NCBI GenBank assembly: GCA_037783545.1
Contig: JBBELK010001078.1
Coordinates: 1 to 64,000 of the forward strand
Length of the DNA stretch: 64,000 bases
Source of the DNA: Henricia sp. BOLD:AAB3569
Taxonomy: Eukaryota; Echinodermata; Asteroidea; Spinulosida; Echinasteridae
Reading direction: 5' to 3'
Shown: positions 11,661 through 60,800 of the stretch, piece after piece
Numbering within the stretch: the first letter of the stretch is position 1
Layout: each line of letters begins with the position of its first letter
Notes under the pieces: model-generated
What the model was told of the DNA's origin: nothing
Seen by the model: the letters and a program-made list of their open reading frames with translations, nothing else
Database searches by the model: none
Made by a program: the position numbers and the translations under genes

Positions 11661-11930
11661 TGTTGTTGTTGTTGTATATATTTTTATGGCATCTTCGGCA
11701 ACTAAGGCCCTTTATGCCATCAACTATACGGTTTTAGCTTTAACTATACTATATTATCAACTTGAGATGACGAAGAAGGAGTTGCAGTTTTAGAAGTGGG
11801 AGGAAAACCCCCAGAGAAATGCCCCAGGGGAAAACCCACGCGGTCAAGTAGGGACTGCAAACCCAATCCACATATACGCCCCGGATTCGAACCCGGGACC
11901 CGAGAGGTGAAAGGCGAGGAAAGAACCCGT
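11661..11930 (-). mobile_element. tRNA-derived SINE (family A), copy 1
   Basis: Read on the minus strand it has a tRNA-like head with a perfect pol III B box (GGTTCGAATCC), a body with gtgggttttcccctggggc and ggttttcctcccac resembling the central domain of Deu-type SINEs, and a (CAA)n tail, which appears as tgttgttgttgttg at the left end on the plus strand. It is flanked by a 12-bp target duplication, gtggctgtctgt, at 11649-11660 and 11931-11942. The head is about 19 bp shorter than in the copy at 27335. It has no coding capacity; a LINE must have supplied the reverse transcriptase. Confidence 0.9.
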
Positions 11931-12669: not shown

Positions 12670-12939
12670 TGTTGTTGTTGTTGTATATATTTTTATGGCA
12701 TCTTCGGCAACTAAGGCCCTTTATGCCATCAACTATACGGTTTTAGCTTTAACTATACTATATTATCAACTTGAGATGACGAAGAAGGAGTTGCAGTTTT
12801 AGAAGTGGGAGGAAAACCCCCAGAGAAATGCCCCAGGGGAAAACCCACGCGGTCAAGTAGGGACTGCAAACCCAATCCACATATACGCCCCGGATTCGAA
12901 CCCGGGACCCGAGAGGTGAAAGGCGAGGAAAGAACCCGT
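12670..12939 (-). mobile_element. SINE family A, copy 2 (amplified with array)
   Basis: Appears identical in length, boundaries and flanking 12-bp duplication to the copy at 11661, exactly 1009 bp downstream. It is a passenger of satellite amplification, not a new insertion. Confidence 0.9.
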
Positions 12940-14866: not shown

Positions 14867-15136
14867 TGTTGTTGTTGTTGTATATATTTTTATGGCATCT
14901 TCGGCAACTAAGGCCCTTTATGCCATCAACTATACGGTTTTAGCTTTAACTATACTATATTATCAACTTGAGATGACGAAGAAGGAGTTGCAGTTTTAGA
15001 AGTGGGAGGAAAACCCCCAGAGAAATGCCCCAGGGGAAAACCCACGCGGTCAAGTAGGGACTGCAAACCCAATCCACATATACGCCCCGGATTCGAACCC
15101 GGGACCCGAGAGGTGAAAGGCGAGGAAAGAACCCGT
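14867..15136 (-). mobile_element. SINE family A, copy 3 (amplified with array)
   Basis: Same element, ends and gtggctgtctgt duplication as the copies at 11661 and 12670. It follows four more full monomers than copy 2 does. Confidence 0.9.
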
Positions 15137-16468: not shown

Positions 16469-16738
16469 TGTTGTTGTTGTTGTATATATTTTTATGGCAT
16501 CTTCGGCAACTAAGGCCCTTTATGCCATCAACTATACGGTTTTAGCTTTAACTATACTATATTATCAACTTGAGATGACGAAGAAGGAGTTGCAGTTTTA
16601 GAAGTGGGAGGAAAACCCCCAGAGAAATGCCCCAGGGGAAAACCCACGCGGTCAAGTAGGGACTGCAAACCCAATCCACATATACGCCCCGGATTCGAAC
16701 CCGGGACCCGAGAGGTGAAAGGCGAGGAAAGAACCCGT
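16469..16738 (-). mobile_element. SINE family A, copy 4 (amplified with array)
   Basis: Same element, boundaries and target duplication as the three upstream copies. The preceding monomer has private changes (aggtcataaaatg and gcacctgtc), so this unit has begun to diverge from the other three. Confidence 0.9.
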
Positions 16739-27334: not shown

Positions 27335-27618
27335 GGGCGGTCGGGTTGGCGTACGGGTTCTTTCCTCGCCTTTCACCTCTGGGGTCCCGGGTTCGAATCC
27401 GGGGCGTGTATGTGGATTGGGTTTGCAGTCCCTACTTGACCGCGTGGGTTTTCCCCTGGGGCATTTCTCTGGGGGTTTTCCTCCCACTTCTAAAACTGCA
27501 ACTCCTTCTTCGTCATCTCAAGTTGATAATATAGTATAGTTAAAGCTAAAACCGTATAGTTGATGGCATAAAGGGCCTTAGTTGCCGAAGATGCCATAAA
27601 ATATACAACAACAACAAC
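27335..27618 (+). mobile_element. tRNA-derived SINE (family B insertion), copy 1
   Basis: Starts with gggcggtcgggttggcg, has the perfect B box GGTTCGAATCC near 27393, the same Deu-like body as the SINE at 11661, and ends in (CAA)n. It is flanked by a duplication of the monomer sequence atgctcagtca (11-12 bp, about 27323-27334 and 27618-27629). Opposite orientation, different target site and a longer head make it an insertion independent of the four copies at 11-17 kb, although of the same family. Confidence 0.9.
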
Positions 27619-28878
27619 ATGCTCAGTCATTCGGACTGTCGTTGACGCACCGCAGTTTGGCTCGGCAATTTGGTCAAAGTGTGGTCCAAACGTCGGCAAA
27701 TTTGGAGGTCGAAAAATGTTCCGACGAACTTCAAATTTTGCATGCCCTAAACTCTCTATATTGCGCACTTGTCATAAAAAATTGACAGACTTTCGCCGGG
27801 AAATGGCAGAGAAATTTCAAAGTTTAGAAAAAACTGGGTTGAGGCTTCCTGACTGCTCTCACGCAAACCGTGGCTGTCTGTACACACCTCTTTGGGGTAC
27901 TCCTGAGTTGTGCGCATGCTCAGTCATTCGGACTGTCGTTAACGCACCGCAGTTTGGCTCGGCAATTTGGTCATAGTGTGGTCCAAACGTCGGAAAATTT
28001 GGAGGTCGAAAAATGTTCCGACGAACTTCAAATTTTGCATGCCCTAAACTCTCTATATTGCGCACTTGTCATAAAAAATTGACAGACTTTCGCCGGGAAA
28101 TGGCAAAGAAATTTCAAAGTTTAGAAAAAAACTGGGTTGAGGCTTCCTGACTGCTCTCACGCAAACCGTGGCTGTCTGTACACACCTCTTTGGGGTACTC
28201 CTAAGTTGTGCGCATGCTCAGTCATTCGGACTGTCGTTAACGCACCGCAGTTTGGCTCGGCAATTTGGTCAAAGTGTGGTCCAAACGTCGGCAAATTTGG
28301 AGGTCAAAAAATGTTCCGACGAACTTCAAATTTTGCATGCCCTAAATTCTCTATATTGCGCACTTGTCATAAAAAATTGACAGACTTTCGCCGGGAAATG
28401 GCAGAGAAATTTCAAAGTTTAGAAAAAAACTGGGTTGAGGCTTCCTGACTGCTCTCACGCAAACCGTGGCTGTCTGTACACACCTCTTTGGGGTACTCCT
28501 GAGTTGTGCGCATGCTCAGTCATTCGGACTGTCGTTAACGCACCGCAGTTTGGCTCGGCAATTTGGTCATAGTGTGGTCCAAACGTCGGCAAATTTGGAG
28601 GTCGAAAAATGTTCCGACGAACTTCAAATTTTGCATGCCCTAAACTCTCTATATTGCGCACTTGTCATACAAAATTGACAGACTTTCGTCGGGAAATGGC
28701 AGAGAAATTTCAAAGTTTAGAAAAAAAACTGGGTTGAGGCTTCCTGACTGCTCTCACGCAAACCGTGGCTGTCTGTACACACCTCTTTGGGGTACTCCTA
28801 AGTTGTGCGCATGCTCAGTCATTCGGACTGTCGTTAACGCACCGCAGTTTGGCTCGGTCGTTAACGCACCGCAGTTTG

Positions 28879-29506
28879 GGGCGGTCGGGTTGGCGTACGG
28901 GTTCTTTCCTCGCTGGCCTGTGATGACCGCTTTCCAAAGGACTACCCTTGCACATAGGTAGTTTGGAGGAGTTTTTCGCGGAATCCCGTGATGTCCTGGA
29001 ACGTTGCTCAATGATGGAGTGACCAGTACGTACGTCACGGGGAACGCCGATGCAATTTTGGAACACGATTGGATCCGAGTCTGCGGTCTTGATTCTTCCA
29101 GACCTGGACTGGTGACGATTGTGGTTTTATGAGGATGTACCTGTGGTGCTTCTCGAAGGATATGACCTGATACTCGGACACGATCGACCAAGATTGGTGA
29201 TGATTGTGATGGAGAATACTCGCCGGATAATGACCTGGATTGGCAACGACAACGAATGAGGAAATTTGGTGGATAAATGACCTGGACTGGCAACGACAAC
29301 GAATGAGGAAATTTGGCAATAACGGCGAACAATTGGTGGATAAATGACCTGGACTGGCAACGACTACGAATGAGGAAATTTGGCAATAACGGCGAACGCT
29401 TAGTGGATAAATGACCTGGACTGGCAACGACAACGCCTGAAGCACTGGTTCTATCGGTAACAACGTTGGACTGGTTAGCGTGTTTTATTCGGACGAATAA
29501 AACATT
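28879..29506 (+). mobile_element. Chimeric insert with SINE-like head, copy 1
   Basis: The first 35 bp (28879-28913) match the head of the SINE at 27335, up to ctttcctcgc. The sequence then switches to unrelated, unrecognised DNA of about 590 bp. This holds a short tandem repeat (29224-29450), then a 10-bp-arm palindrome that includes AATAAA (29482-29503). On the left, a 22-bp piece of the monomer ending in gcagtttgg is present twice (28831-28852 and 28858-28879). On the right, the insert meets ttagaaaaa and then ggcaatttgg, which are not adjacent in a normal monomer, so a rearrangement followed insertion. There is no clear target duplication. The long minus-strand ORFs across it have no recognisable domain. 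It could be a SINE-to-transcript fusion, copied by a LINE through template switching. Confidence 0.65.
29224..29450 (+). repeat. Short tandem repeat within chimeric insert, copy 1
   Basis: Four units starting with ggataaatgacctgg (first unit ggataatgacctgg) at 29224, 29271, 29338 and 29405. Units 2 and 3 are 67 bp, unit 1 is 47 bp, and the last is partial. Each contains ggcaacgac followed by gaatgaggaaatttgg, except the last. Confidence 0.85.
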
Positions 29507-32500
29507 TTAGAAAAAGGCAATTTGGTCAAAGTGTGGTCCAAACGTCGGCAAATTTGGAGGTCGAAAAATGTTCCGACGAACTTCAAACTTTGCATGCCCT
29601 AAACTCTCTATATTGCGCACTTGTCATAAAAAAATTGACAGACTTTCGCCGGGAAATGGCAGAGAAATTTCAAAGTTTAGAAAAAACTGGGTTGAGGCTT
29701 CCTGACTGCTCTCACGCAAACCGTGGCTGTCTGTACACACCTCTTTGGGGTACTCCTGAGTTGTGCGCATGCTCAGTCATTCGGACTGTCGTTAACGCAC
29801 CGCAGTTTGGCTCGGCAATTTGGTCAAAGTGTGGTCCAAACGTCGGCAAATTTGGAGGTCGAAAAATGTTCCGACGAACTTCAAATTTTGCATGCCCTAA
29901 ACTCTCTATATTGCGCACTTGTCATAAACAATTGACAGACTTTCGCCGGGAAATGGCAGAGAAATTTCAAAGTTTAGAAAAAACTGGTTTGAGGCTTCCT
30001 GACTGCTCTCACGCAAACCGTGGCTGTCTGTACACACCTCTTTGGGGTACTCCTGAGTTGTGCGCATGCTCAGTCATTCGGACTGTCGTTAACGCACCGC
30101 AGTTTGGCTCGGCAATTTGGTCAAAGTGTGGTCCAAACGTCGGCAAATTTGGAGGTCGAAAAATGTTCCGACGAACTTCAAATTTTGCATGCCCTAAACT
30201 CTCTATATTGCGCACTTGTCATAAAAAATTGACAGACTTTCGCCGGGAAATGGCAGAGAAATTTCAAAGTTTAGAAAAAACTGGGTTGAGGCTTCCTGAC
30301 TGCTCTCACGCAAACCGTGGCTGTCTGTACACACCTCTTTGGGGTACTCCTGAGTTGTGCGCATGCTCAGTCATTCGGACTGTCGTTAACGCACCGCAGT
30401 TTGGCTCGGCAATTTGGTCAAAGTGTGGTCCAAACGTCGGCAAATTTGGAGGTCGAAAAATGTTCCGACGAACTTCAAATTTTGCATGCCCTAAACTCTC
30501 TATATTGCGCACTTGTCATAAAAAATTGACAGACTTTCGCCGGGAAATGGCAGAGAAATTTCAAAGTTTAGAAAAAACTGGGTTGAGGCTTCCTGACTGC
30601 TCTCACGCAAACCGTGGCTGTCTGTACACACCTCTTTGGGGTACTCCTGAGTTGTGCGCATGCTCAGTCATTCGGACTGTCGTTAACGCACCGCAGTTTG
30701 GCTCGGCAATTTGGTCAAAGTGTGGTCCAAACGTCGGCAAATTTGGAGGTCGAAAAATGTTCCGACGAACTTCAAATTTTGCATGCCCTAAACTCTCTAT
30801 ATTGCGCACTTGTCATAAAAAATTGACAGACTTTCGCCGGGAAATGGCAGAGAAATTTCAAAGTTTAGAAAAAACTGGGTTGAGGCTTCCTGACTGCTCT
30901 CACGCAAACCGTGGCTGTCTGTACACACCTCTTTGGGGTACTCCTGAGTTGTGCGCATGCTCAGTCATTCGGACTGTCGTTAACGCACTGCAGTTTGGCT
31001 CGGCAATTTGGTCAAAGTGTGGTCCAAACGTCGGCAAATTTGGAGGTCGAAAAATGTTCCGACGAACTTCAAATTTTGCATGCCCTAAACTCTCTATATT
31101 GCGCACTTGTCATAAAAAATTGACAGACTTTCGCCGGGAAATGGCAAAGAAATTTCAAAGTTTAGAAAAAAACTGGGTTGAGGCTTCCTGACTGCTCTCA
31201 CGCAAACCGTGGCTGTCTGTACACACCTCTTTGGGGTACTCCTAAGTTGTGCGCATGCTCAGTCATTCGGACTGTCGTTAACGCACCGCAGTTTGGCTCG
31301 GCAATTTGGTCAAAGTGTGGTCCAAACGTCGGCAAATTTGGAGGTCGAAAAATGTTCCGACGAACTTCAAATTTTGCATGCCCTAAACTCTCTATATTGC
31401 GCACTTGTCATAAAAAATTGACAGACTTTCGCCGGGAAATGGCAGAGAAATTTCAAAGTTTAGAAAAAAACTGGGTTGAGGCTTCCTGACTGCTCTCACG
31501 CAAACCGTGGCTGTCTGTACACACCTCTTTGGGGTACTCCTAAGTTGTGCGCATGCTCAGTCATTCGGACTGTCGTTAACGCACCGCAGTTTGGCTCGGC
31601 AATTTGGTCAAAGTGTGGTCCAAACGTCGGCAAATTTGGAGGTCGAAAAATGTTCCGACGAACTTCAAATTTTGCATGCCCTAAACTCTCTATATTGCGC
31701 ACTTGTCATACAAAATTGACAGACTTTCGTCGGGAAATGGCAGAGAAATGTCAAAGTTTAGAAAAAAAACTGGGTTGAGGCTTCCTGACTGCTCTCACGC
31801 AAACCGTGGCTGTCTGTACACACCTCTTTGGGGTACTCCTAAGTTGTGCGCATGCTCAGTCATTCGGACTGTCGTTAACGCACCGCAGTTTGGCTCGGCA
31901 ATTTGGTCAAAGTGTGGTCCAAACGTCGGCAAATTTGGAGGTCGAAAAATGTTCCGACGAACTTCAAACTTTGCATGCCCTAAACTCTCTATATTGCGCA
32001 CTTGTCATAAAAAATTGACAGACTTTCGCCGGGAAATGGCAGAGAAATTTCAAAGTTTAGAAAAAACTGGGTTGAGGCTTCCTGACTGCTCTCACGCAAA
32101 CCGTGGCTGTCTGTACACACCTCTTTGGGGTACTCCTGAGTTGTGCGCATGCTCAGTCATTCGGACTGTCGTTAACGCACCGCAGTTTGGCTCGGCAATT
32201 TGGTCAAAGTGTGGTCCAAACGTCGGCAAATTTGGAGGTCGAAAAATGTTCCGACGAACTTCAAATTTTGCATGCCCTAAACTCTCTATATTGCGCACTT
32301 GTCATAAACAATTGACAGACTTTCGCCGGGAAATGGCAGAGAAATTTCAAAGTTTAGAAAAAACTGGGTTGAGGCTTCCTGACTGCTCTCATGCAAACCG
32401 TGGCTGTCTGTACACACCTCTTTGGGGTACTCCTGAGTTGTGCGCATGCTCAGTCATTCGGACTGTCGTTAACGCACCGCAGTTTGGCTCGGCAATTTGG

Positions 32501-32755: not shown

Positions 32756-33039
32756 GGGCGGTCGGGTTGGCGTACGGGTTCTTTCCTCGCCTTTCACCTC
32801 TGGGGTCCCGGGTTCGAATCCGGGGCGTGTATGTGGATTGGGTTTGCAGTCCCTACTTGACCGCGTGGGTTTTCCCCTGGGGCATTTCTCTGGGGGTTTT
32901 CCTCCCACTTCTAAAACTGCAACTCCTTCTTCGTCATCTCAAGTTGATAATATAGTATAGTTAAAGCTAAAACCGTATAGTTGATGGCATAAAGGGCCTT
33001 AGTTGCCGAAGATGCCATAAAATATACAACAACAACAAC
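32756..33039 (+). mobile_element. SINE family B insertion, copy 2 (duplicated with array)
   Basis: Same sequence, orientation and flanking atgctcagtca duplication as the SINE at 27335, exactly 5421 bp downstream. It arose by segment duplication, not by new insertion. Confidence 0.9.
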
Positions 33040-34299
33040 ATGCTCAGTCATTCGGACTGTCGTTGACGCACCGCAGTTTGGCTCGGCAATTTGGTCAAAG
33101 TGTGGTCCAAACGTCGGCAAATTTGGAGGTCGAAAAATGTTCCGACGAACTTCAAATTTTGCATGCCCTAAACTCTCTATATTGCGCACTTGTCATAAAA
33201 AATTGACAGACTTTCGCCGGGAAATGGCAGAGAAATTTCAAAGTTTAGAAAAAACTGGGTTGAGGCTTCCTGACTGCTCTCACGCAAACCGTGGCTGTCT
33301 GTACACACCTCTTTGGGGTACTCCTGAGTTGTGCGCATGCTCAGTCATTCGGACTGTCGTTAACGCACCGCAGTTTGGCTCGGCAATTTGGTCATAGTGT
33401 GGTCCAAACGTCGGAAAATTTGGAGGTCGAAAAATGTTCCGACGAACTTCAAATTTTGCATGCCCTAAACTCTCTATATTGCGCACTTGTCATAAAAAAT
33501 TGACAGACTTTCGCCGGGAAATGGCAAAGAAATTTCAAAGTTTAGAAAAAAACTGGGTTGAGGCTTCCTGACTGCTCTCACGCAAACCGTGGCTGTCTGT
33601 ACACACCTCTTTGGGGTACTCCTAAGTTGTGCGCATGCTCAGTCATTCGGACTGTCGTTAACGCACCGCAGTTTGGCTCGGCAATTTGGTCAAAGTGTGG
33701 TCCAAACGTCGGCAAATTTGGAGGTCGAAAAATGTTCCGACGAACTTCAAATTTTGCATGCCCTAAATTCTCTATATTGCGCACTTGTCATAAAAAATTG
33801 ACAGACTTTCGCCGGGAAATGGCAGAGAAATTTCAAAGTTTAGAAAAAAACTGGGTTGAGGCTTCCTGACTGCTCTCACGCAAACCGTGGCTGTCTGTAC
33901 ACACCTCTTTGGGGTACTCCTGAGTTGTGCGCATGCTCAGTCATTCGGACTGTCGTTAACGCACCGCAGTTTGGCTCGGCAATTTGGTCATAGTGTGGTC
34001 CAAACGTCGGCAAATTTGGAGGTCGAAAAATGTTCCGACGAACTTCAAATTTTGCATGCCCTAAACTCTCTATATTGCGCACTTGTCATACAAAATTGAC
34101 AGACTTTCGTCGGGAAATGGCAGAGAAATTTCAAAGTTTAGAAAAAAAACTGGGTTGAGGCTTCCTGACTGCTCTCACGCAAACCGTGGCTGTCTGTACA
34201 CACCTCTTTGGGGTACTCCTAAGTTGTGCGCATGCTCAGTCATTCGGACTGTCGTTAACGCACCGCAGTTTGGCTCGGTCGTTAACGCACCGCAGTTTG

Positions 34300-34927
34300 G
34301 GGCGGTCGGGTTGGCGTACGGGTTCTTTCCTCGCTGGCCTGTGATGACCGCTTTCCAAAGGACTACCCTTGCACATAGGTAGTTTGGAGGAGTTTTTCGC
34401 GGAATCCCGTGATGTCCTGGAACGTTGCTCAATGATGGAGTGACCAGTACGTACGTCACGGGGAACGCCGATGCAATTTTGGAACACGATTGGATCCGAG
34501 TCTGCGGTCTTGATTCTTCCAGACCTGGACTGGTGACGATTGTGGTTTTATGAGGATGTACCTGTGGTGCTTCTCGAAGGATATGACCTGATACTCGGAC
34601 ACGATCGACCAAGATTGGTGATGATTGTGATGGAGAATACTCGCCGGATAATGACCTGGATTGGCAACGACAACGAATGAGGAAATTTGGTGGATAAATG
34701 ACCTGGACTGGCAACGACAACGAATGAGGAAATTTGGCAATAACGGCGAACAATTGGTGGATAAATGACCTGGACTGGCAACGACTACGAATGAGGAAAT
34801 TTGGCAATAACGGCGAACGCTTAGTGGATAAATGACCTGGACTGGCAACGACAACGCCTGAAGCACTGGTTCTATCGGTAACAACGTTGGACTGGTTAGC
34901 GTGTTTTATTCGGACGAATAAAACATT
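34300..34927 (+). mobile_element. Chimeric insert with SINE-like head, copy 2
   Basis: Second copy of the insert at 28879, offset 5421 bp, with the same internal tandem repeat, AATAAA palindrome and junctions on both sides. The shared junction scars show that the rearrangement preceded the segment duplication. Confidence 0.65.
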
Positions 34928-36826
34928 TTAGAAAAAGGCAATTTGGTCAAAGTGTGGTCCAAACGTCGGCAAATTTGGAGGTCGAAAAATGTTCCGACGA
35001 ACTTCAAACTTTGCATGCCCTAAACTCTCTATATTGCGCACTTGTCATAAAAAAATTGACAGACTTTCGCCGGGAAATGGCAGAGAAATTTCAAAGTTTA
35101 GAAAAAACTGGGTTGAGGCTTCCTGACTGCTCTCACGCAAACCGTGGCTGTCTGTACACACCTCTTTGGGGTACTCCTGAGTTGTGCGCATGCTCAGTCA
35201 TTCGGACTGTCGTTAACGCACCGCAGTTTGGCTCGGCAATTTGGTCAAAGTGTGGTCCAAACGTCGGCAAATTTGGAGGTCGAAAAATGTTCCGACGAAC
35301 TTCAAATTTTGCATGCCCTAAACTCTCTATATTGCGCACTTGTCATAAACAATTGACAGACTTTCGCCGGGAAATGGCAGAGAAATTTCAAAGTTTAGAA
35401 AAAACTGGTTTGAGGCTTCCTGACTGCTCTCACGCAAACCGTGGCTGTCTGTACACACCTCTTTGGGGTACTCCTGAGTTGTGCGCATGCTCAGTCATTC
35501 GGACTGTCGTTAACGCACCGCAGTTTGGCTCGGCAATTTGGTCAAAGTGTGGTCCAAACGTCGGCAAATTTGGAGGTCGAAAAATGTTCCGACGAACTTC
35601 AAATTTTGCATGCCCTAAACTCTCTATATTGCGCACTTGTCATAAAAAATTGACAGACTTTCGCCGGGAAATGGCAGAGAAATTTCAAAGTTTAGAAAAA
35701 ACTGGGTTGAGGCTTCCTGACTGCTCTCACGCAAACCGTGGCTGTCTGTACACACCTCTTTGGGGTACTCCTGAGTTGTGCGCATGCTCAGTCATTCGGA
35801 CTGTCGTTAACGCACCGCAGTTTGGCTCGGCAATTTGGTCAAAGTGTGGTCCAAACGTCGGCAAATTTGGAGGTCGAAAAATGTTCCGACGAACTTCAAA
35901 TTTTGCATGCCCTAAACTCTCTATATTGCGCACTTGTCATAAAAAATTGACAGACTTTCGCCGGGAAATGGCAGAGAAATTTCAAAGTTTAGAAAAAACT
36001 GGGTTGAGGCTTCCTGACTGCTCTCACGCAAACCGTGGCTGTCTGTACACACCTCTTTGGGGTACTCCTGAGTTGTGCGCATGCTCAGTCATTCGGACTG
36101 TCGTTAACGCACTGCAGTTTGGCTCGGCAATTTGGTCAAAGTGTGGTCCAAACGTCGGCAAATTTGGAGGTCGAAAAATGTTCCGACGAACTTCAAATTT
36201 TGCATGCCCTAAACTCTCTATATTGCGCACTTGTCATAAAAAATTGACAGACTTTCGCCGGGAAATGGCAAAGAAATTTCAAAGTTTAGAAAAAAACTGG
36301 GTTGAGGCTTCCTGACTGCTCTCACGCAAACCGTGGCTGTCTGTACACACCTCTTTGGGGTACTCCTAAGTTGTGCGCATGCTCAGTCATTCGGACTGTC
36401 GTTAACGCACCGCAGTTTGGCTCGGCAATTTGGTCAAAGTGTGGTCCAAACGTCGGCAAATTTGGAGGTCGAAAAATGTTCCGACGAACTTCAAATTTTG
36501 CATGCCCTAAACTCTCTATATTGCGCACTTGTCATAAAAAATTGACAGACTTTCGCCGGGAAATGGCAGAGAAATTTCAAAGTTTAGAAAAAAACTGGGT
36601 TGAGGCTTCCTGACTGCTCTCACGCAAACCGTGGCTGTCTGTACACACCTCTTTGGGGTACTCCTAAGTTGTGCGCATGCTCAGTCATTCGGACTGTCGT
36701 TAACGCACCGCAGTTTGGCTCGGCAATTTGGTCAAAGTGTGGTCCAAACGTCGGCAAATTTGGAGGTCGAAAAATGTTCCGACGAACTTCAAATTTTGCA
36801 TGCCCTAAACTCTCTATATTGCGCAC

Positions 36827-50508: not shown

Positions 50509-51216
50509 GTCGGAAATGGCAGAGAAATTTCAAAGTTTAGAAAAAAACTGGGTTGAGGCTTCCTGACTGTACACACCTCTTTGGGGTACTCCTGAGTTGT
50601 GCGCATGCTTAGTCATTCGGACTGTCGTTAACGCACCGCAGTTTGGCTCGGCAATTTGGTCAAAGTGTGGTCCAAACGTCGGCAAATTTGGAGGTCGAAA
50701 AATGTTCCGACGAACTTCAAATTTTGCATGCCCTAAACTCTCTATATTGCGCACTTGTCATAAAAAATTGACAGACTTTCGCCGGGAAATGGCAGAGAAA
50801 TTTCAAAGTTTAGAAAAAAACTGGGTTGAGGCTTCCTGACTGCTCTCACGCAAACCGTGGCTGTCTGTACACACCTCTTTGGGGTACTCCTGAGTTGTGC
50901 GCATGCTCAGTCATTCGGACTGTCGTTAACGCACCGCAGTTTGGCTCGGCAATTTGGTCAAAGTGTGGTCCAAACGTCGGCAAATTTGGAGGTCGAAAAA
51001 TGTTCCGACGAACTTCAAATTTTGCATGCCCTAAACTCTCTATATTGCGCACTTGTCATAACAAATTGACAGACTTTCGCCGGAAAATGGCAGAGAAATT
51101 TCAAAGTTTAGAAAAAACTGGGTTGAGGCTTCCTGACTGCTCTCACGCAAACCGTGGCTGTCTGTACACACCTCTTTGGGGTACTCCTGAGTTGTGCGCA
51201 TGCTCAGTCATTCGGA
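50509..51216 (+). repeat. Rearranged satellite edge next to the transposon
   Basis: One monomer is broken at gactgtcgg and joined to aaatggcagag (50514). The next lacks 25 bp so that cctgact meets gtacacac (near 50570). Two ordinary monomers follow, the second interrupted by the transposon after tcattcgga. Confidence 0.9.
51208..51216. repeat. 9-bp target-site duplication, left
   Basis: TCATTCGGA, part of the satellite monomer. The same nine bases follow the right end of the element at 57867-57875, where the monomer continues as ctgtcg. Confidence 0.93.
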
Positions 51217-51331
51217 TAGTCTTGGTGCAAGACGATACTGACCGCCGCGAGAGGGCGCCATACACTTTACTATGAGGACAGGAAACCAGTCTACGTCCGT
51301 GCCTGCAGTATCGTCTTGGGACAAATCCTGA
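51217..51331 (+). repeat. Left terminal inverted repeat (115 bp)
   Basis: Exact complement of 57752-57866. Within it, gtcttg-gtg-caagac forms a small hairpin at the tip, and caagacgatactg (51228-51240) is the complement of cagtatcgtcttg (51306-51318), so each terminal repeat can fold on itself as a 91-bp stem-loop unit. Confidence 0.94.
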
Positions 51332-51658
51332 CTGTTGGTATGTGACACCATGTGACCTTTGACCTAAGCTTATACATATGCATTAAGAGGTCAATTTCAC
51401 CTGGCATAATGAGACTGCCAGTCTGGCAACATGAGACTGCCAGTCTGGCAACTTGCAAAAAAAAGGTGGGAGGGTAAAGTTCTGACGACATGGTGTGACA
51501 TGTAGTCTGTCTAGTGTCATCATGTGTACAATGTATGCGATCGATCGATCGATCGTTGTTGTGTCTTATCACGGAGGTAGGAAAAGATGTCTAGTGCAGT
51601 CTGTTGTGAACTGTGTAAACAAATAAACTGCCAAGTTATAATTAAAGTTTAAACAACC
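51332..51658. other. Noncoding left arm of the transposon with simple repeats
   Basis: Contains a perfect 22-bp tandem pair (51409-51430 and 51431-51452) that itself has a tgccag-t-ctggca hairpin, an A-run, and a (CGAT)n tract at 51538-51555. No coding exon is recognised. Confidence 0.7.
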
Positions 51659-51850
51659 ATGCCGCAAAGATGGGGCGGTGCACTCCAGTTTACTCCATGT
51701 GGCCGTGAACACGTGGACGGACGGACCTGCCCTGGATGGGAAAAAGCATTAAAATGTTGCCAAAAGATTTGCAGAACAACAATGCATTTTGGTTTATGCC
51801 AGGGGCTCTACTCCTGCCCCTGTTGTGAAGCACGTTTTTTTAAGCAATAA
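51659..51850 (+). CDS. Small Cys-rich ORF, unassigned
   Basis: Encodes 63 residues from ATG to TAA and is unusually rich in cysteine (about ten, including KCCQKIC and SCPCC near the C-terminus). An in-frame stop lies a few codons upstream, so the ORF starts at this ATG unless it is a terminal exon. No known domain is recognised; paired cysteines could bind zinc or form disulfides, but no signal peptide is visible. It lies on the strand opposite the helicase gene. It may be a chance ORF. Low confidence that it is a gene. Confidence 0.2.
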   Translation: MPQRWGGALQFTPCGREHVDGRTCPGWEKALKCCQKICRTTMHFGLCQGLYSCPCCEARFFKQ

Positions 51851-52163
51851 TTTATACTCAAACATCATTGTTTTTTCCTTACAATGACTTACATGTATTA
51901 GGCATCAATAAGTGCAAATCCAATGGAAAACCAAAGGATTTTAGTGCAGCAGGGCTTATGTGATGTCCGACTTGTAAATTCTTTCGGTCAGCGAGACCGA
52001 GAATCAACAGAGAGTAGGAAACATGGGTTGGTGCGAAAGAGCAGTTTAAGAGATGATGTTTATTAGGTTTAAACGCAGAACGTTTTCCCAGATGCACTCA
52101 CAAATTTGGATAAGAATGAAGTTGACCATAAATATTTTCGCCCATAAAATGACTGATTTTTAA
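51851..52163. other. Noncoding stretch in the transposon left arm
   Basis: AT-rich sequence between the Cys-rich ORF and the TTAA-flanked element. Minus-strand ORFs of 65-72 codons here have no recognisable domain. Nothing else is seen. Confidence 0.6.
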
Positions 52164-52523
52164 AGGAGCGTGACCAGAGTTTCTGGAAAATAGTTTTCGA
52201 TGTAACTTACCAATATTATCAAGTAACTCCCATACACACCTCCCATGTCCCAAAAACCCGAAAACATTCGCAATTTCCAGTAAAAAATTGAACAAAACTA
52301 TTGAGTATGCTTTTAGCGGATAAACGTTGATACTGGAAAATTAGTTTACAAATAATCGGTGGATTTTCGACGATATCCTCGGAAATATGCGGCCTAGAAG
52401 CGCGGGAGTTTCAGTTTCGTAATCAAAAAAAATATAACGGATGTTATGATATAAAAATCTCATGACCCATAAGGTAAGTCCCGGGGAGTTATGGGTAAAA
52501 AAAAGTGATCTGGTCACACTCCT
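52164..52523. mobile_element. 360-bp MITE flanked by TTAA
   Basis: Terminal inverted repeats start AGGAG(C/T)GTGACCAGA, about 15 bp with one mismatch, and the element is bracketed by TTAA at 52160-52163 and 52524-52527. TTAA duplications are typical of piggyBac and Kolobok elements. The element has no coding capacity. It is inserted inside the larger transposon. Confidence 0.75.
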
Positions 52524-52612
52524 TTAAGCATTAGATTTGATAGAAAAACGCAAATATTTTCTGGTCAACTCTTCTTTCCCTAGAGAGTTCCGGTGTTTTT
52601 AAGGTTTGTCTT

Positions 52613-52731
52613 CATTGGCGGATCCAGCCTCATTAAAATACAGAAATACAGGAATACAAAGAAAACGCAGGGCTATAGCCCACTGAAATCCATTCTATTC
52701 CTGTATTTGAATGAGGCTGGATCCACCACTA
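52613..52731. mobile_element. 119-bp foldback MITE
   Basis: Arms of 31 bp (52613-52643 and 52701-52731) are complementary at 27 positions and share ggatccagcctcatt. The flanks on both sides read gtctt (52608-52612, 52732-52736), a possible 5-bp target duplication. Superfamily unclear: the ends resemble CAGTGGCGGATCC-type terminal repeats common in hAT-like MITEs, but those give 8-bp duplications. Confidence 0.6.
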
Positions 52732-53300
52732 GTCTTGATGGTCTTTGTCATTAAACGCTGGAGTGTAAAGTCCTGAATAATTTGAAATTACCACTGGTAT
52801 TTCATGACGTGACCGGGTCGGCAACACTTGGAGTCAACCGCTCCCGTGACTAACATTGCCAGAACGTGTTTACCGGTACACATCCTCTGCCTCCTCTGCC
52901 TGGATGTGTGGTCGTAAATACTTTAGACTTTACATTTAACTTCCTCTTCCATTTTTTTTGTTCACTAAACACTAGGAGGTTTGCATGTAAAACGTGAATG
53001 TGAAATGGCTTGAACCCAGGTTCGAATTTTGGTCACGGCAAAAGAGTTATCTTGCCACGAAAGTCACATTTGTGGATTTTTGTTTTCGTCTGTTGTAAGG
53101 TTTCCTCAAAGTAACGACCAAGTGCTCACAGCATTCCATGTTCGCATTTTACGTGCATCTAATCATTCATATTATGTCCTTGCATCACAACCCTACTTCA
53201 TTTACATGGTGCTACATGTAGAACCATGGACAAAGGAAATCCACAGGCTCAACTGAGGGTGACAGTTGCAATAGGAGATTTTTGAGACGCATGTGGCAGT
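52732..53300. other. Noncoding stretch in the transposon left arm
   Basis: No recognisable exon, RNA or repeat. A plus-strand ORF of 75 codons at 53029 starts at a non-ATG codon and matches nothing I recognise. Confidence 0.6.
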
Positions 53301-53392
53301 AAACAAACCAGTCCTTCATTATTTACGTCACATTGGAGCTATAAAGTGTGCATGCTCAATGTGACAAACAATAGAAAAGGACCGGTTTGTTT
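53301..53392. repeat. Imperfect palindrome (about 92 bp)
   Basis: Outer arms aaacaaaccagtcctt (53301-53316) and its near-complement at 53376-53392, and inner arms gtcacattggagc (53327-53339) and gctcaatgtgac (53354-53365), form a nested stem. It may be a degenerate MITE. Confidence 0.55.
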
Positions 53393-53724
53393 GATGCCAA
53401 CATGTTTCTCAAAAGTCACCCATTCCCGAAACAACAGATATTGTGCTGAACTTGGCCCGCTGAAAATCAGCTTCATAAAGTACATGTACATAGCAATTGC
53501 AGCTACATGTACTTTGTGTAGCATGAGCGCCACCATTTTGTTTAGAAAATTTGTAGACAGCTCCGTCGTGTACTCCTTTTGCAGAAATACGTAGTTATTG
53601 AAGTGCCTTCCAACTTATTGAGATTCTGAAATAATTTATCGCAGGATGACACATATTCAGTGTCTAAAGTTCAAAGTATGTTTTTTCGTTTAAAGGCACA
53701 GGCTCGTCACCAATGCATGAGCGC
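53393..53724. other. Noncoding stretch in the transposon left arm
   Basis: Holds a smaller palindrome around agtacatgtacat and its complement (53479-53518). The tacatgta motif is frequent through the next 1.5 kb. No gene recognised. Confidence 0.55.
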
Positions 53725-53789
53725 CAAATTCGTGCCACGAAATACGCAGCTCCATGCCATGGAGCTGCGTATTTTATGGCACGAATTTG
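53725..53789. repeat. 65-bp near-perfect palindrome
   Basis: Starts caaattcgtgcc and ends ggcacgaatttg, with the centre at ccatgccatgg. Arms of about 31 bp have few mismatches and would form a stable hairpin or cruciform. Confidence 0.75.
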
Positions 53790-54755
53790 TTGAGAACCAC
53801 AGACTGTATATCTTTAAACAAACAAAACTTCATACAAAACTACATAGTTTATTTTTATACAACCAGAACAGACTTTACAGTTTTAAGTAAATAATTATAC
53901 CATGTGTTGGGGCATGGAGGTACGAAAAGTTATGGTTGGGGTTAGCACACTCGAGAAATAATGAGTTTTTTGCATTTTTAACTGTACAGTATACCGGTAC
54001 TTTAAGATTGGAATTAACAAGAAACTAATGGGGCCTACATTAAATACAATGTATTTATAAGTAAGTAAATATTGCATGTGAAAAACTTCTGGTCTTTATC
54101 ATCCTTTGCTAAGAATGAGTAAACGGGCTCAGGTGTTTCACAAAAATTCACATGTACATGTACATGGAAATACGTATTGTGCTTATGTGCTATTTACATG
54201 TAGTTGTAAATTTCATTGTATACAAGCCCATGACACTACTTGATTTCCAAAGTAAACGTTTACATTCACTGACTCATACATGTAGGTGACATTTATGCAA
54301 ATTGCAACAGGGAAAAAACATTGGCTGTCACACATGTTTAAATTTGACATTGGCAGATTGTAAATACATAGTTAAATGGTTAAAATTGTGTACAACAAAC
54401 TGGCGTACATGTAGCATGGGTAACATCATTTCAAAACGAACACTGGCTACTTGCAAGGCAGTCATGTTTTCCGTAAAAAAGTCACAATTGTTAAAATTTC
54501 TATTTAAATTACTATTAACTATCTAAAAGTGTACATGGCATTACCTTTGTATAAATCAATCACAGCAGCTAGAGCATTGTCAATGATCGTGTATGGCATG
54601 CCTCAATACATGTATTTATATGCTTCATAAAAGATTTCCCACATCTACTAAATTCACTATTAGTAAGAAACATAAATCAAATATCGCAAACTTTATACAC
54701 CTGTGAAACTTGGATCAACTACAGTACAGTACTGTAACTGTCCAATCACTCCACA
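53790..54755. other. AT-rich noncoding stretch in the transposon left arm
   Basis: Many copies of acatgta or tacatgta are scattered here. Short ORFs have no recognisable domain. No RNA gene or exon is seen. Confidence 0.55.
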
Positions 54756-54916
54756 TAGACCTTATTGCAAATAACGCTTGGGTGAGTTTTTACAAAAGCA
54801 GCAATGTATTGTGGGAAGGTTTTCGGGGCAGACTTTGCCCCGTTTTCCTTCCCACAATACAGTTGTGCTTTTGTGCAGACTTGCCCAAGGGGTATTACTA
54901 TTAGCGATAAGGTCTA
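54756..54916. mobile_element. 161-bp foldback MITE
   Basis: Begins tagaccttattgc and ends gcgataaggtcta. Inner segments cttgggtgagt / acttgcccaag and tattgtgggaagg / ccttcccacaata pair almost throughout, and gggcagactttgccc forms the loop hairpin. The whole unit folds as one long stem. It may have a TA target duplication (ca-ta at left, ta-tt at right), which cannot be proven from one copy. Confidence 0.65.
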
Positions 54917-55106
54917 TTACTCCCCATTACTCACCACCACCCCCCGCCCCCCACTACACACGGACACCATTTGTTTAAAAGTAGCATTTGTACGCTAAGA
55001 AAAAACATGCATCAAGGATTTAATAAAAATGGAAACACTTCAACCTGTTTCATGTGTTTTGTATTATGTACACAAGGTCTGAAGCAGTGGTCAGCTACTT
55101 AATAAT
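54917..55106. other. 3' flank of the helicase gene
   Basis: On the minus strand, ATTAAA occurs immediately after the stop codon and again at 55019-55024. The latter is a plausible variant polyadenylation signal about 85 bases past the stop. A C-rich tract (accaccaccccccgcccccc) lies at 54930-54950. Confidence 0.4.
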
Positions 55107-57558
55107 TTAATCACTACCAGTACTGCTAGATCCAAATTGTGGTTCAGCATACTCGCCACCCAAGGGGTCCTCGAAAGAATCTGATGCAGTGCTGTTGTCG
55201 CTTTCCAACTCTGACAATGGTCCCTTGTCTGGTGACTGGACACTTGAGTCATATATTTCAGTTTTCATGACTTGCCATACTTGTGATGCAATCTCTTTGC
55301 GTGCAAAAGCATATCGATCACAGAAGTCATCAAAAGGAAACACGATGTGACATTCATTGACTACTTCTGTTATTGTGGAGTCTGACAAGCCACAGGCAAT
55401 ACCCTCGCTTGTGTACATGTGGCTGCTGCTGTCTGCCAGTAACGTTTGTTTGTACTCCTGTAGATGTTCCTTTAATTGTGTTACCAGACTTTGTGGCACC
55501 GTCACAATTAGATATTCAGCCGATGTTGACTGTCCATGAAGCAGAGCATCTCGCATTTGCTTTTCAGCATAGGAGTGTTTACCAGAGCATTCGCTTCCAT
55601 CACAAGCACATGTCTGGGCACAAACGTCGCAACAATCATGTTTTATCATTGAGGCATCAGTGTCAGTGTCGCTTCTTGCTGGTGAAGGGAAGTTTTTCTT
55701 GATAACAAGCCGTCTGCACTCGCTTCCCTCTACAAAAGCTTTCATAGCATCGCTTGTTTTCCCACCAAGCCCACCACCACGATACTTAACAAGGAGTGCC
55801 AAACTCTGGGCTCCATCACGGCCTGCCCTCCCGCTCAACTGCATCAAGTCATCTAGATGTGATGGGTGACCTACCAATATTACTGTTTGAAGACCACACA
55901 CATCAATCCCTAGACCGAATGCAATCGTAGCAAACAAAATGCGCACCTCTCCATCTTCTCGTGAAAAACTGTCAATGATTTTTCGTTGTACGCCAGCTTC
56001 CGTATTTGTGTGGTACATTTCAAAGTAACGATGCAGCTCCTTCGGAAGAAGAAAACGGAAGAGAGAATGAAGTTCACTGACAACTCTGCGAGATTGACAG
56101 TATAGAATGATTCTCTCCATGGAACCGCCTCTCTCATTGATCCCCTGTGCCATCCATTTAAACATGGCTTCAAAGTTCTTGTCGTCAGACTTCAGAACAA
56201 CATACTTGATGTTCAAGCGTTCAGGGCTCTCCTCTATCATGCCATAATTCCGGAGTGCCAAGCTCTCAACGATCGTTTGTCTCACTTTCACAGTTGCAGT
56301 GGCTGTCAAAGCTACAACGCGGGTAGTGGGTTTCACCAAAGATCGCAAATCTCCAAGTCGACCATAGCACTTGCGGAATACTGTGCTCTCTTTTGATGAA
56401 TGACCCCTGTAAATAAAATAAAACAAAAATTAAATGTTATCGTACAAGTAAATTAAGCTCAAACTGAATTCACACGAAGACATTCATAATGGCCTGTGGG
56501 TATTCACGCTAAGACATTCATTCTTGAGTACATTGTACAATGTAACTTCAACTTGCAAGAGAAAGTGGATATATGGGAACCAGTCTATTAGTATTGGTAC
56601 ACCCGACCTTTGACGTGCATTGTGCGCAGAAAACTCCGAAAAGATTCATTGATGAATGTTTTCCTCTCAAAATGATTAATATACAACTAATGAATTGTTA
56701 TGAATGCAATGGGAGGAATATTTTCATGAGGTGAAAGATGGAATGTTACATTCAACGAGGAGAAGCCGAGTTAAATGGAACATATTCCATCTTTCACCGA
56801 AAGAAAATGATAATCATTTTTGTGTGCTAAAACAAACAAAGTGCTTTTTTTTTACACTGAAATTTTGCACAAACATAGACAACAATCTCCCCAAACTGTC
56901 GCTGGTTTCACAACTGGACCAGAAATCTCACCGTCAAACTAACATCTTGCTGTGTTCCATTTTTAATATTAAAAAATAACGTTTTAAAAATAAATATCGT
57001 CAGAAAGCATGGAAAGTTTATCATTTATTTTCAGTATCTGAACAAAGCTGTTCCCAGTGCTGGTTTAGACCTAATTTACCTACCATTTTGATACGCAGTG
57101 ACTTTCGTCAACAAAGATTCCGCAGCATCTACTTTTCACCGATTGAAGTAGCTCCTTCCCCTTAGGTCCGCAAAGGGTCTCTGGGCTGGCAAATAATATG
57201 GAATACTTGTCTGCTTGCTCAATGACACAATCTGGAATGACCGAGGTGATGTCGGCTGCCGCTACACCGAGCCGACTTACTCGTTCTAACTGGTTCACCG
57301 CCAGAGCCTTCAGCGGGAGAACCACAATGACAAGAGCATGGTCGCCGTCGTTCGTACTAGTTTTTCCCTCAGTCTCAGGCCCGTCTTGCAAAAAATCCAC
57401 AACAAATATCACGCTTTTCCCGAAACCGGTAGGTAGATTAATAAACAAATCACTGCCCTGTGCGAATTGCCGGAGAGCATTTATTTGGTGGCTTTTCAGT
57501 TCTCAAATCCTAATTTCCTGGCAGCAAAGTCAATAGCGTCGTCCACGCTAGCCGACAT
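55107..57558 (-). CDS. RecQ-family ATP-dependent DNA helicase, two exons, one frame break
   Basis: A superfamily 2 helicase expected to unwind DNA 3' to 5' with ATP. Exon 1 runs 57558-57084 and exon 2 runs 56406-55107, about 591 residues in all, close to the short RecQ proteins. Motifs in order: LKSHQINALRQF (Q-motif region, 21-32), Walker A LPTGFGKS (42-49), Ia VVLPLKALA, DExH box DESHCVSKW (151-159), motif III ALTATAT (191-197), IV IILYCQSR (258-265), V FATIAFGLGID (317-327), VI QLSGRAGRDG (348-357), then a RecQ zinc-binding-like cluster with Cys 389, 417, 418, 421, 425 and 427. No winged-helix or HRDC domain is recognised; the tail is acidic and Ser-rich. Residues after the DExH box differ from the usual GHDFRPEY. 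The start ATG (57558) reads MSASVDDAIDFAARKLGFEN, a family-like N-terminus, then one base is missing near 57499; everything after it is in the shifted frame. This may be a mutation or an assembly error. The gene lies wholly inside the transposon. Confidence 0.88.
56407..57083 (-). other. Helicase intron (677 bp, GT-AG)
   Basis: The donor is AAATG|GTAGGT and the acceptor is TTTACAG|GGGTC on the minus strand. Splicing joins TG to G and restores the Trp of SKWGH, just after the DExH box. The intron contains a palindrome: ggtgaaagatggaat (near 56732) pairs with attccatctttcacc (near 56785), probably a degenerate MITE. Confidence 0.85.
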
Positions 57559-57751
57559 TTTTTTCTGAAGCAAGTGCAGTTAGTACATGTACATTATAGC
57601 TTTCCCTGTTTGTACCGTAGATGTGCATATTAGACGTACAGGTACCAGAATGCACAGCGCTGGCTTAAACTTATGTTAATAAGCTCCACGTCATAGGTAT
57701 GCATGGCATAATGAGCAATGCGTGGAATGCGCTCGGAATTTCCCGAGCGAT
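57559..57751 (-). promoter_or_regulatory. Presumed helicase promoter region
   Basis: This 193-bp interval separates the helicase start codon from the right terminal repeat. On the minus strand it has ctataatg about 35 bases before the ATG and tgacgtgg, which resembles a CRE half, further up. A hairpin (cgctcgg-aattt-cccgagcg, about 57730-57750) abuts the terminal repeat. Promoter function is inferred from position only. Confidence 0.3.
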
Positions 57752-57866
57752 TCAGGATTTGTCCCAAGACGATACTGCAGGCACGGACGTAGACTGGTTT
57801 CCTGTCCTCATAGTAAAGTGTATGGCGCCCTCTCGCGGCGGTCAGTATCGTCTTGCACCAAGACTA
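57752..57866 (-). repeat. Right terminal inverted repeat (115 bp)
   Basis: Exact complement of 51217-51331, including the nested caagacgatactg / cagtatcgtcttg pair and the tip hairpin. Ends at agacta, followed by the duplicated TCATTCGGA. Confidence 0.94.
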
Positions 57867-57875
57867 TCATTCGGA
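57867..57875. repeat. 9-bp target-site duplication, right
   Basis: TCATTCGGA, matching 51208-51216. The interrupted satellite monomer resumes here and continues as ctgtcgttaacg. Confidence 0.93.
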
Positions 57876-60800
57876 CTGTCGTTAACGCACCGCAGTTTGG
57901 CTCGGCAATTTGGTCAAAGTGTGGTCCAAACGTCGGCAAATTTGGAGGTCGAAAATGTTCCGACGAACTTCAAATTTTGCATGCCCTAAACTCTCTATAT
58001 TGCGCACTTGTCATAAAAAATTGACAGATTTTTGCCGGAAATGGCAGAGAAATTTCAAAGTTTAGAAAAAACTGGGTTGAGGCTTCCTGACTGCTCTCAC
58101 GCCAAACCGTGGCTGTCTGTACACACCTCTTTGGGGTACTCCTGAGTTGTGCGCATGCTCAGTCATTCGGACTGTCGTTAACGCACCGCAGTTTGGCTCG
58201 GCAATTTTGGTCAAAGTGTGGTCCAAACGTCGGCAAATTTGGAGGTCGAAAATGTTCCGACGAACTTCAAATTTTGCATGCCCTAAACTCTCTATATTGC
58301 GCACTTGTCATAAACAATTGACAGACTTTCGCCGGGAAATGGCAGAGAAATTTCAAAGTTTAGAAAAAACTGGGTTGAGGCTTCCCTGACTGCTCTCACG
58401 CAAACCGTGGCCTTCTGTACACACCTCTTTGGGGTACTCCTGAGTTGTGCGCATGCTCAGTCATTCGGACTGTCGTTAACGCACCGCAGTTTGGCTGGGC
58501 AATTTGGTCAAAGTGTGGTCCAAACGTCGGCAATTTGGAGGTCGAAAAATGTTCCGACGAACTTCAAATTTTGCATGCCCTAAACTCTCTATATTGCGCA
58601 CTTGTCATAAAAAATTGACAGACTTTCGCCGGGAAATGGCAGAGAAATTTCAAAGTTTAGAAAAAAATGGTTGAGGCTTCCTGACTGCTCTCACGCAAAC
58701 CGTGGCTGTCTGTACACACCTCTTTGGGGTACTCCTGAGTTGTGCGCATGCTCAGTCATTCGGACTGTCGTTAACGCACCGCAGTTTGGCTCGGCAATTT
58801 GGTCAAAGTGTGGTCCAAAACGTCGGCAAATTTGGAGGTCGAAAAATGTTCCGACGAACTTCAAATTTTGCATGCCCTAAACTCTCTATATTGCGCACTT
58901 GTCATAAAAAATTGACAGACTTTCGCCGGAAATGGCAGAGAAATTTCAAAGTTTAGAAAAAACTGGTTGAGGCTTCCTGACTGCTCTCACGCAAACCGTG
59001 GCTGTCTGTACACACCTCTTTGGGTACTCCTGAGTTGTGCGCATGCTCAGTCATTCGGACTGTCGTTAACGCACCGCAGTTTGGCTCGGCAATTTGGTCA
59101 AAGTGTGGTCCAAACGTCGGCAAATTTGGAGGTCGAAAAATGTTCCGACGAACTTCAAATTTTGCATGCCTAAACTCTCTATATTGCGCACTTGTCATAA
59201 AAAATTGACAGACTTTCGCCGGGAAATGGCAGAGAAATTTCAAAGTTTAGAAAAAAACTGGTTGAGGCTTCCTGACTGCTCTCACGCAAACCGTGGCTGT
59301 CTGTACACACCTCTTTGGGGTACTCCTGAGTTGTGCGCATGCTCAGTCATTCGGACTGTCGTTAACGCACCGCAGTTTGGCTCGGCAATTTGGTCAAAGT
59401 GTGGTCCAAACGTCGGCAAATTTGGAGGTCGAAAAATGTTCCGACGAACTTCAAATTTTGCATGCCCTAAACTCTCTATATTGCGCACTTGTCATAAAAA
59501 ATTGACAGACTTTCGCCGGGAAATGGCGAGAGAAATTTTAAAGTTTAGAAAAAACTGGGTTGAGGCTTCCTGACTGCTCTCACGCAAACCGTGGCTGTCT
59601 GTACACACCTCTTTGGGGTACTCCTGAGTTGTGCGCATGCTCAGTCATTCGGACTGTCGTTAACGCACCGCAGTTTGGCTCGGCAATTTGGTCAAAGCGT
59701 GGTCCAAACGTCGGCAAATTTGGAGGTCGAAAATGTTTCCGACGAACTTCAAATTTTGGCAGGCCCTAAACTCTCTATATTGCGCACTTGTCATAAAAAA
59801 AATTGACAGACTTTCGCCGGGAAATGCAGAGAAATTTCAAAGTTTAGAAAAAACTGGGTTGAGGCTTCCTGACTGCTCTCACGCAAACCGTGGCTGTCTG
59901 TACACACCTCTTTGGGGTACTCCTGAGTTGTGCGCATGCTCAGTCATTCGGGACTGTCGTTAACGCACCGCAGTTTGGCTCGGCAATTTGGTCAAAGTGT
60001 GGTCCAAACGTCGGCAAATTTGGAGGTCGAAAAATGTTCCGACGAACTTCAAATTTTGCATGCCCTAAACTCTCTATATTGCGCACTTGTCATAAAAAAT
60101 TGACAGACATTCGCCGGGAAATGGCAGAGAAAATTTAAAGTTTAGAAAAAAACTGGGTTGAGCTTCCTGACTGCTCTCACGCAAACAGTGGCTGTCTGTA
60201 CACACCTCTTTGGGGTACTCCTGAGTTGTGCGCATGCTCAGTCATTCGGACTGTCGTTAACGCACCGCAGTTTGGCTCGGCAATTTGGTCAAAGTGTGGT
60301 CCAAACGTCGGCAAATTTGGAGGTCGAAAAATGTTCCGACGAACTTCAAATTTTGCATGCCCTAAACTCTCTATATTGCGCACTTTGTCATAAAAAATTG
60401 ACAGACTTTCGCCGGGAAATGGCAGAGAAATTTCAAAGTTAGAAAAAAACTGAGTTGAGGCTTTCCTGACTGCTCTCACGCAAAACCGTGGCTGTCTGTA
60501 CACACCTCTTTGGGGTACTCCTGAGTTGTGCGCATGCTCAATGCTCAGTCATTCGGACTGTCGTTAACGCACCGCAGTTTGGCTCGGCAATTTGGTCAAA
60601 GTGTGGTCCAAACGTCGGCAAATTTGGAGGTCGAAAAATGTTCCGACGAACTTCAAATTTTGCATGCCCTAAACTCTCTATATTGCGCACTTGTCATAAA
60701 AAATTGACAGACTTTCGCCGGGAAATGGCAGAGAAATTTCAAAGTTTAGAAAAAACTGGGTTGAGGCTTCCTGACTGCTCTCACGCAAACCGTGGCTGTC

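Follow-up and report, generated by a model that had tools for sequence, protein, structure and literature searches.

Why a DNA transposon should carry a RecQ helicase, and no other recognisable gene, is the question raised by a locus in the asteroid Henricia sp. BOLD:AAB3569. The window that we analyzed is a stretch of 64,000 nucleotides (positions 1 to 64,000 of the forward strand of contig JBBELK010001078.1, assembly GCA_037783545.1), and the element in question is a single insertion of 6650 bp at window positions 51217-57866. A preliminary description of the window, made from the letters alone, had delimited this element by identical 115-bp terminal inverted repeats (TIRs); its coordinates are exact, and the two repeats agree at 115 of 115 positions. 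The reading that we prefer, with a probability of about 70%, is that of a non-autonomous, helicase-bearing DNA transposon of the cut-and-paste type that would depend on a transposase supplied in trans from elsewhere.

The ends of the element are well defined. The left TIR (51217-51331, plus strand) is the reverse complement of the right TIR (57752-57866, minus strand), and an identity of 115/115 leads us to reject a chance origin of the terminal repeats. The lack of any difference limits the divergence between the two arms to at most about 2.6% (95%, by simple arithmetic). This lends slight weight to the recent mobility proposed in the preliminary description, against which stands the broken reading frame of the helicase discussed below. 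Both flanks carry the 9-bp direct repeat TCATTCGGA (51208-51216 and 57867-57875, plus strand). Because two neighboring base pairs match as well, TIRs of 116 bp with a 7-bp target site duplication (CATTCGG), or of 117 bp with a 5-bp duplication (ATTCG), fit equally well; a duplication of 9 bp is the simplest reading and the longest of the three.

The DNA that surrounds the element is a tandem satellite with a period of 297 bp (Tandem Repeats Finder), and the site into which the element inserted can be recognized many times in its uninterrupted form. The window contains 147 copies of the 26-bp insertion site CTCAGTCATTCGGACTGTCGTTAACG, all 147 of them outside the element. When the flanks are joined to reconstruct the empty site, 172 of 180 matches in the array pass the joint without a gap within 20 bases. 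None of the 180 crosses the joined site without any gap along the whole alignment, and the gaps concentrate at position 226 of the monomer (175 occurrences), at a distance from the joint. The recurrence of the empty site and the gap-free matches at the joint reveal that the element inserted into the satellite. The earlier claim of a 9-bp duplication within a satellite monomer thus stands for the repeat TCATTCGGA and for the place of insertion, with lengths of 7 or 5 bp fitting equally.

Each TIR contains a perfect inverted pair of 13 bp, CAAGACGATACTG and CAGTATCGTCTTG. In the left TIR the outer CAAGACGATACTG lies at 51228-51240 (plus strand) and the inner CAGTATCGTCTTG at 51306-51318 (minus strand); in the right TIR the inner CAAGACGATACTG is found at 57765-57777 (plus strand) and the outer CAGTATCGTCTTG at 57843-57855 (minus strand). 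A pair of 13 bp was reached in none of 2000 mononucleotide shuffles of the TIR. As single-stranded DNA the TIR folds somewhat better than its shuffles (z -2.42, with 4 of 200 as good). We infer that the 13-bp pairs are candidate protein-binding sites, the outer half of the left pair being a candidate site for a transposase.

The sole recognisable gene of the element encodes a RecQ-family helicase in two exons on the minus strand (57558-55107). Exon 1 (57084-57558) starts with an ATG at 57558 and carries motifs 0, I, Ia and II; the intron (56407-57083, minus strand) is 677 bp long with GT-AG borders, and joining the exons across it restores the conserved motif DE.HCVS.WGH in frame. Exon 2 (55107-56406, minus strand) carries motifs III-VI, the zinc cysteines of the RecQ type and a C-terminal part without a Pfam match, and ends with a stop codon at 55107-55109. 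An imperfect palindrome at 56720-56808, possibly a nested small transposon, sits in the intron.

The preliminary description had recognized the two exons and motifs I to VI, which profiles and alignment support, and it had missed a frame break at the N-terminus. From the ATG at 57558 the frame runs for 20 codons to a stop at 57498-57496, and the frame of the helicase is open from 57502 only, in a register other than that of the ATG. The two pieces meet at the position of the first motif in RecQ proteins. Either the gene is interrupted by the frame break near 57502 or the break is a sequencing error; given the break, the helicase of this copy is unlikely to be intact. An exon that stays open for about 430 codons would arise with a chance of about 2e-11; we therefore reject a chance open frame, and the length of the frame suggests that selection acted on the helicase until recently.

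The assignment to the RecQ family draws on several comparisons. In the joined protein Pfam recognizes DEAD (E 8.6e-18), Helicase_C (E 1.5e-15) and ResIII (E 8.1e-07), with Helicase_C and DEAD scoring above the cut-off. The NCBIfam model recQ_fam is the top match of both exons (E=4.1e-36 for exon 2 and 4e-12 for exon 1), with scores of 124.8 and 45.7 bits, respectively, that lie under its curated cut-off of 219.8 bits; in exon 1 DpdF is nearly level with it (45.5 against 45.7 bits). Motifs I, Ia, II, III, IV, V and VI, named here by what we take to be their usual designations, align with those of the human RecQs, and in the alignment with RECQ1, BLM and RECQ5 the zinc-site cysteines of RecQ are conserved. 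A superfamily 2 helicase core with RecQ motifs and zinc cysteines is thus present, as is expected of a member of the family. Models for the RQC, HRDC and RecQ zinc domains have no Pfam match at E<=10 in the joined protein; an RQC or HRDC domain is found in many RecQ helicases, not in all. The part that follows the zinc site (55110-55590, minus strand, roughly 160 residues) matches no Pfam family; similar C-terminal parts presumably occur in RecQ-like genes that are multicopy in marine invertebrates, and we take this as a lead only. PHROGs gave only weak matches, to generic DNA helicases, and an AlphaFold2 model of exon 2 alone has a mean confidence score (pLDDT) of 36.3, too low for use.

The left part of the element (51332-55106) is 3.8 kb without a recognisable gene. 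Its six frames, translated with X at stops, gave no Pfam match at E<=10, and hence no transposase, in a search whose HMMER filters drop most matches above about 0.1; as a positive control, identical treatment of 55107-57751 recovers the helicase in two of the three minus-strand frames. The absence of a findable DDE transposase noted earlier is thereby borne out. The six frames hold 57-75 stops each against a mean of 82.9 in mononucleotide shuffles, a shortage that might be taken for old coding sequence; we dropped this idea in view of the mean of 71.5 in dinucleotide shuffles. Of 500 dinucleotide shuffles, 98 have a frame with as few stops as the lowest count here, and 335 have an open stretch as long as the longest here. 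A codon-usage score trained on the helicase exons peaks at 0.185 in the left part against values of up to 0.41 over most of the exons, in a comparison made directly and not against shuffles. The left 3.8 kb thus carries no coding signal. The element may nevertheless encode a transposase for which Pfam has no model, or one that is split over many short exons. An autonomous TIR transposon would encode its own transposase, for which this part gives no Pfam match; non-autonomous members need none. Several imperfect palindromes lie in the left part: one at 54755-54917 is a candidate for a nested miniature inverted-repeat transposable element, and those at 52616-52728, 53294-53399 and 53725-53789 are possibly nested small transposons as well. 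In Rfam nothing reached the gathering threshold over 51000-58100.

The relationships of the helicase bear on where the gene came from. Its identity to human RECQ1, BLM, WRN, RECQ4 and RECQ5 is 25-30%, whereas these five families share 31-45% among themselves (the WRN row is a fragment in both comparisons, which were made with human proteins and not with the host's own genes). Judged by these identities the helicase is not a recent copy of one of the five RecQ families, which argues against recent capture of such a gene and points to an old, separate lineage. A profile search of IMG/VR found a relative encoded in 15 of 46 candidate stretches, and one of genome contigs in at least 593 of at least 596, of which we retained the best 80. 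In total 95 viral and bacterial loci were retained; they share 24-35% identity with the helicase over their best segments and are ordinary distant RecQs. Phage records gave 24 matches, with 28-32% identity among the 12 listed.

The preliminary description had proposed a phylogeny against the host RecQ families, which we carried out with human proteins. The tree has 35 rows: the helicase of the window, five human proteins (WRN as a fragment), 18 of the 80 bacterial loci and 11 of the 15 viral loci; it omits L005, L013, L014, L015, the remaining 62 of the bacterial loci and a fragment from E. coli. The branch leading to the helicase has a length of 4.37, and its neighbor, at a support of 65/62, is RECQ4, which likewise has a long branch. 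Approximately unbiased (AU) tests reject none of four other placements (p 0.126, 0.182, 0.128 and 0.357 for a position as sister to RECQ1, BLM, RECQ5 and WRN, respectively). The placement in the tree thus lacks support, no sister family stands out, and the deep origin of the helicase may lie in any of the five families.

Transposons that carry a helicase are already in print, and a RecQ-only copy without a transposase is a modest variant of them. The RecQ helicase of Academ is counted among the transposon-encoded proteins potentially involved in transposition (PMC3627910). AcademH elements duplicate 9 or 10 bp and AcademX elements 3 or 4, a length seemingly tied to the presence of a helicase or a nuclease (PMC10045372); the hosts of AcademH are animals and fungi, to go by the title of Kojima 2020 as cited in PMC10045372 and PMC10799480. 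AcademH and KolobokH are treated as sources of fungal helicase domains (PMC10799480). RecQ is also encoded in KolobokH, where it lies beside a DDD/E transposase, and in Kolobok-1_CCri, a Kolobok of a red alga (PMC9587614). By a title cited in PMC4289320, the CPA element of the fungus Tolypocladium inflatum has a RecQ too, and other fungal RecQ helicase genes lie at subtelomeres and not in a TIR transposon (PMC4522978). What we consulted in PMC10294476, PMC12210899 and PMC8290104 has no bearing on the family of the element. An animal RecQ-only element was not found in the literature searched, a weak negative, as most subscription papers and Repbase are outside its coverage.

Among these families AcademH is our tentative choice, held at slightly less than even odds; it is judged by the helicase and the length of the duplication. 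AcademH shares with our element a helicase gene and animal hosts, and its duplications of 9 or 10 bp agree with the 9-bp reading of ours (7 and 5 bp fit equally); it differs in that here no transposase is found and the helicase stands alone, with its ATG about 190 bp from the TIR. The Kolobok elements are likewise DNA transposons with a RecQ helicase (PMC9587614). However, Kolobok duplicates TTAA, and KolobokH is reported from fungi only; our element has no transposase and is flanked by TCATTCGGA, CATTCGG or ATTCG. Because the duplication differs from TTAA, we exclude Kolobok and KolobokH. The host-type RecQs (RECQ1, BLM, WRN, RECQ4 and RECQ5) share the helicase core, and RECQ1, BLM and RECQ5 also the zinc cysteines; the gene in the window differs by its 25-30% identity, by the lack of an RQC or HRDC match in Pfam and by its place inside a transposon.

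A 9-bp duplication suits AcademH and Mutator-like elements (MULEs) alike, and AcademH explains the helicase too. Long repeats and a duplication of 8-10 bp, usually 9 bp, are signs of MULEs, and the repeats of 115 bp together with the longest of the three duplication readings agree with them. An alternative is that the element is a non-autonomous MULE, mobilized by the transposase of another MULE, to which the RecQ gene is mere cargo; we regard this as possible and distinctly doubtful. That such an arrangement exists elsewhere is suggested by the apparent MuDR-type carriers of Fanzor1 (ROr-4, PBl-3 and MCi-4), which have TIRs, 9-bp duplications and an accessory gene without a MuDR transposase; they differ from our element in that the accessory gene is Fanzor1 and not RecQ, the hosts are fungi, and the repeats could be matched to known MuDR elements (PMC3627910). 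Drosophila FB4 has been argued to be a MULE on the same kind of evidence, duplications of 9-10 bp and long repeats, but the same paper found no Pack-MULE among 100 animal reference genomes (PMC8277862). We noticed no RecQ-bearing MULE in the literature searched, and the helicase is distant from genes of the human type. The six frames of 51332-55106 contain no Pfam match to a MULE transposase, which a non-autonomous member does not need.

A Pack-TIR-like event, in which a non-autonomous element recently captured the host's own RecQ gene, would account for the intron kept in the gene, and capture of gene pieces by animal transposons is known (PMC8277862). The AU tests (p 0.126-0.357) and the pairing with RECQ4 at 65/62 also leave room for an old origin from any family. 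However, an identity of 25-30% to five human RecQ families that share 31-45% among themselves makes recent capture very unlikely, and the captured helicase of the preliminary description, understood as a recent copy of a repair gene, is disfavored accordingly. The element might also be of a new kind, with the helicase as the principal protein of transposition, as that description had offered as well. Apart from the helicase being the only recognisable gene, we found no positive evidence for this, and we consider it highly improbable. The frame of the helicase is broken here, and the 3.8-kb stretch that may once have housed a transposase is still in place. We know of no helicase that makes strand cuts leaving a fixed short duplication, and KolobokH pairs its RecQ with a DDD/E transposase (PMC9587614). 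The second of the earlier readings, in which an Academ or Mutator-like relative kept a helicase and lost its transposase, fits best, with published RecQ transposons and the 9-10 bp duplications of AcademH in its favor; no transposase was found.

Several observations weigh against a non-autonomous, trans-mobilized element and its placement near AcademH. Pfam, which may have no suitable model, reveals neither an Academ transposase nor a remnant of one. A duplication of 7 or 5 bp fits as well as one of 9 bp. Within the window the pair of repeats occurs in one copy only (blastn, E<=1e-3). In IMG/VR, a collection of viruses, an exact search with a 19-bp stretch of the TIR gave no match, and among seven stretches that match the pattern for close relatives of exon 2 none encodes a relative.

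If the element is indeed a non-autonomous member of such a family, a DDD/E transposase encoded by a full-length relative at another place in the genome would recognize the TIRs, perhaps via the 13-bp inverted pair in each of them, cut both ends and join them to staggered cuts in the target, leaving a short duplication. The helicase would be an accessory protein of the family, likely unwinding or processing the ends or the gap, and the transposase part would have been lost from the present copy or never have been in it. We propose mobilization in trans because it follows the ordinary logic of non-autonomous DNA transposons, and the role as an accessory gene because RecQ-bearing transposons have been published. 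It is unlikely, though conceivable, that this is half of a two-part animal system, in which transposase and RecQ reside on separate elements with common ends and the helicase needed for transposition comes from the RecQ-only one.

The satellite array around the element contains other non-satellite sequences as well. Six non-satellite blocks of 270 or 283 bp lie at 11661-11930, 12670-12939, 14867-15136, 16469-16738, 27335-27617 and 32756-33038. The two that were read out (11661 and 27335) have a box B of the GGTTCGAATCC type and a TTG/CAA tail, and we take them to resemble tRNA-derived short interspersed nuclear elements (SINEs). Rfam gave just one match on the SINE-like blocks, below threshold, and a tRNA search of the whole window found none. 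Direct repeats of 12 bp flank all three blocks tested (11661, 12670 and 27335). Comparison of 11661 with 12670 and of 27335 with 32756 shows identical sequences within each pair, as would be expected if the blocks were spread by amplification of the array. Another non-satellite block, 658 bp long and containing a 67-bp tandem repeat, is present in two identical copies (28858-29515 and 34279-34936) that are 5421 bp apart, the spacing of the pair 27335/32756; this is probably a higher-order repeat of the array.

To our knowledge, it is not settled why a RecQ helicase is encoded in several superfamilies of transposons. A single copy with a broken frame is a lead and not a demonstration. Nevertheless, a young element that has retained its ends and the helicase without a transposase would be a natural test piece for whether the helicase works with transposon ends in trans, and a RecQ-like gene in an animal genome may belong to a transposon and not to DNA repair.

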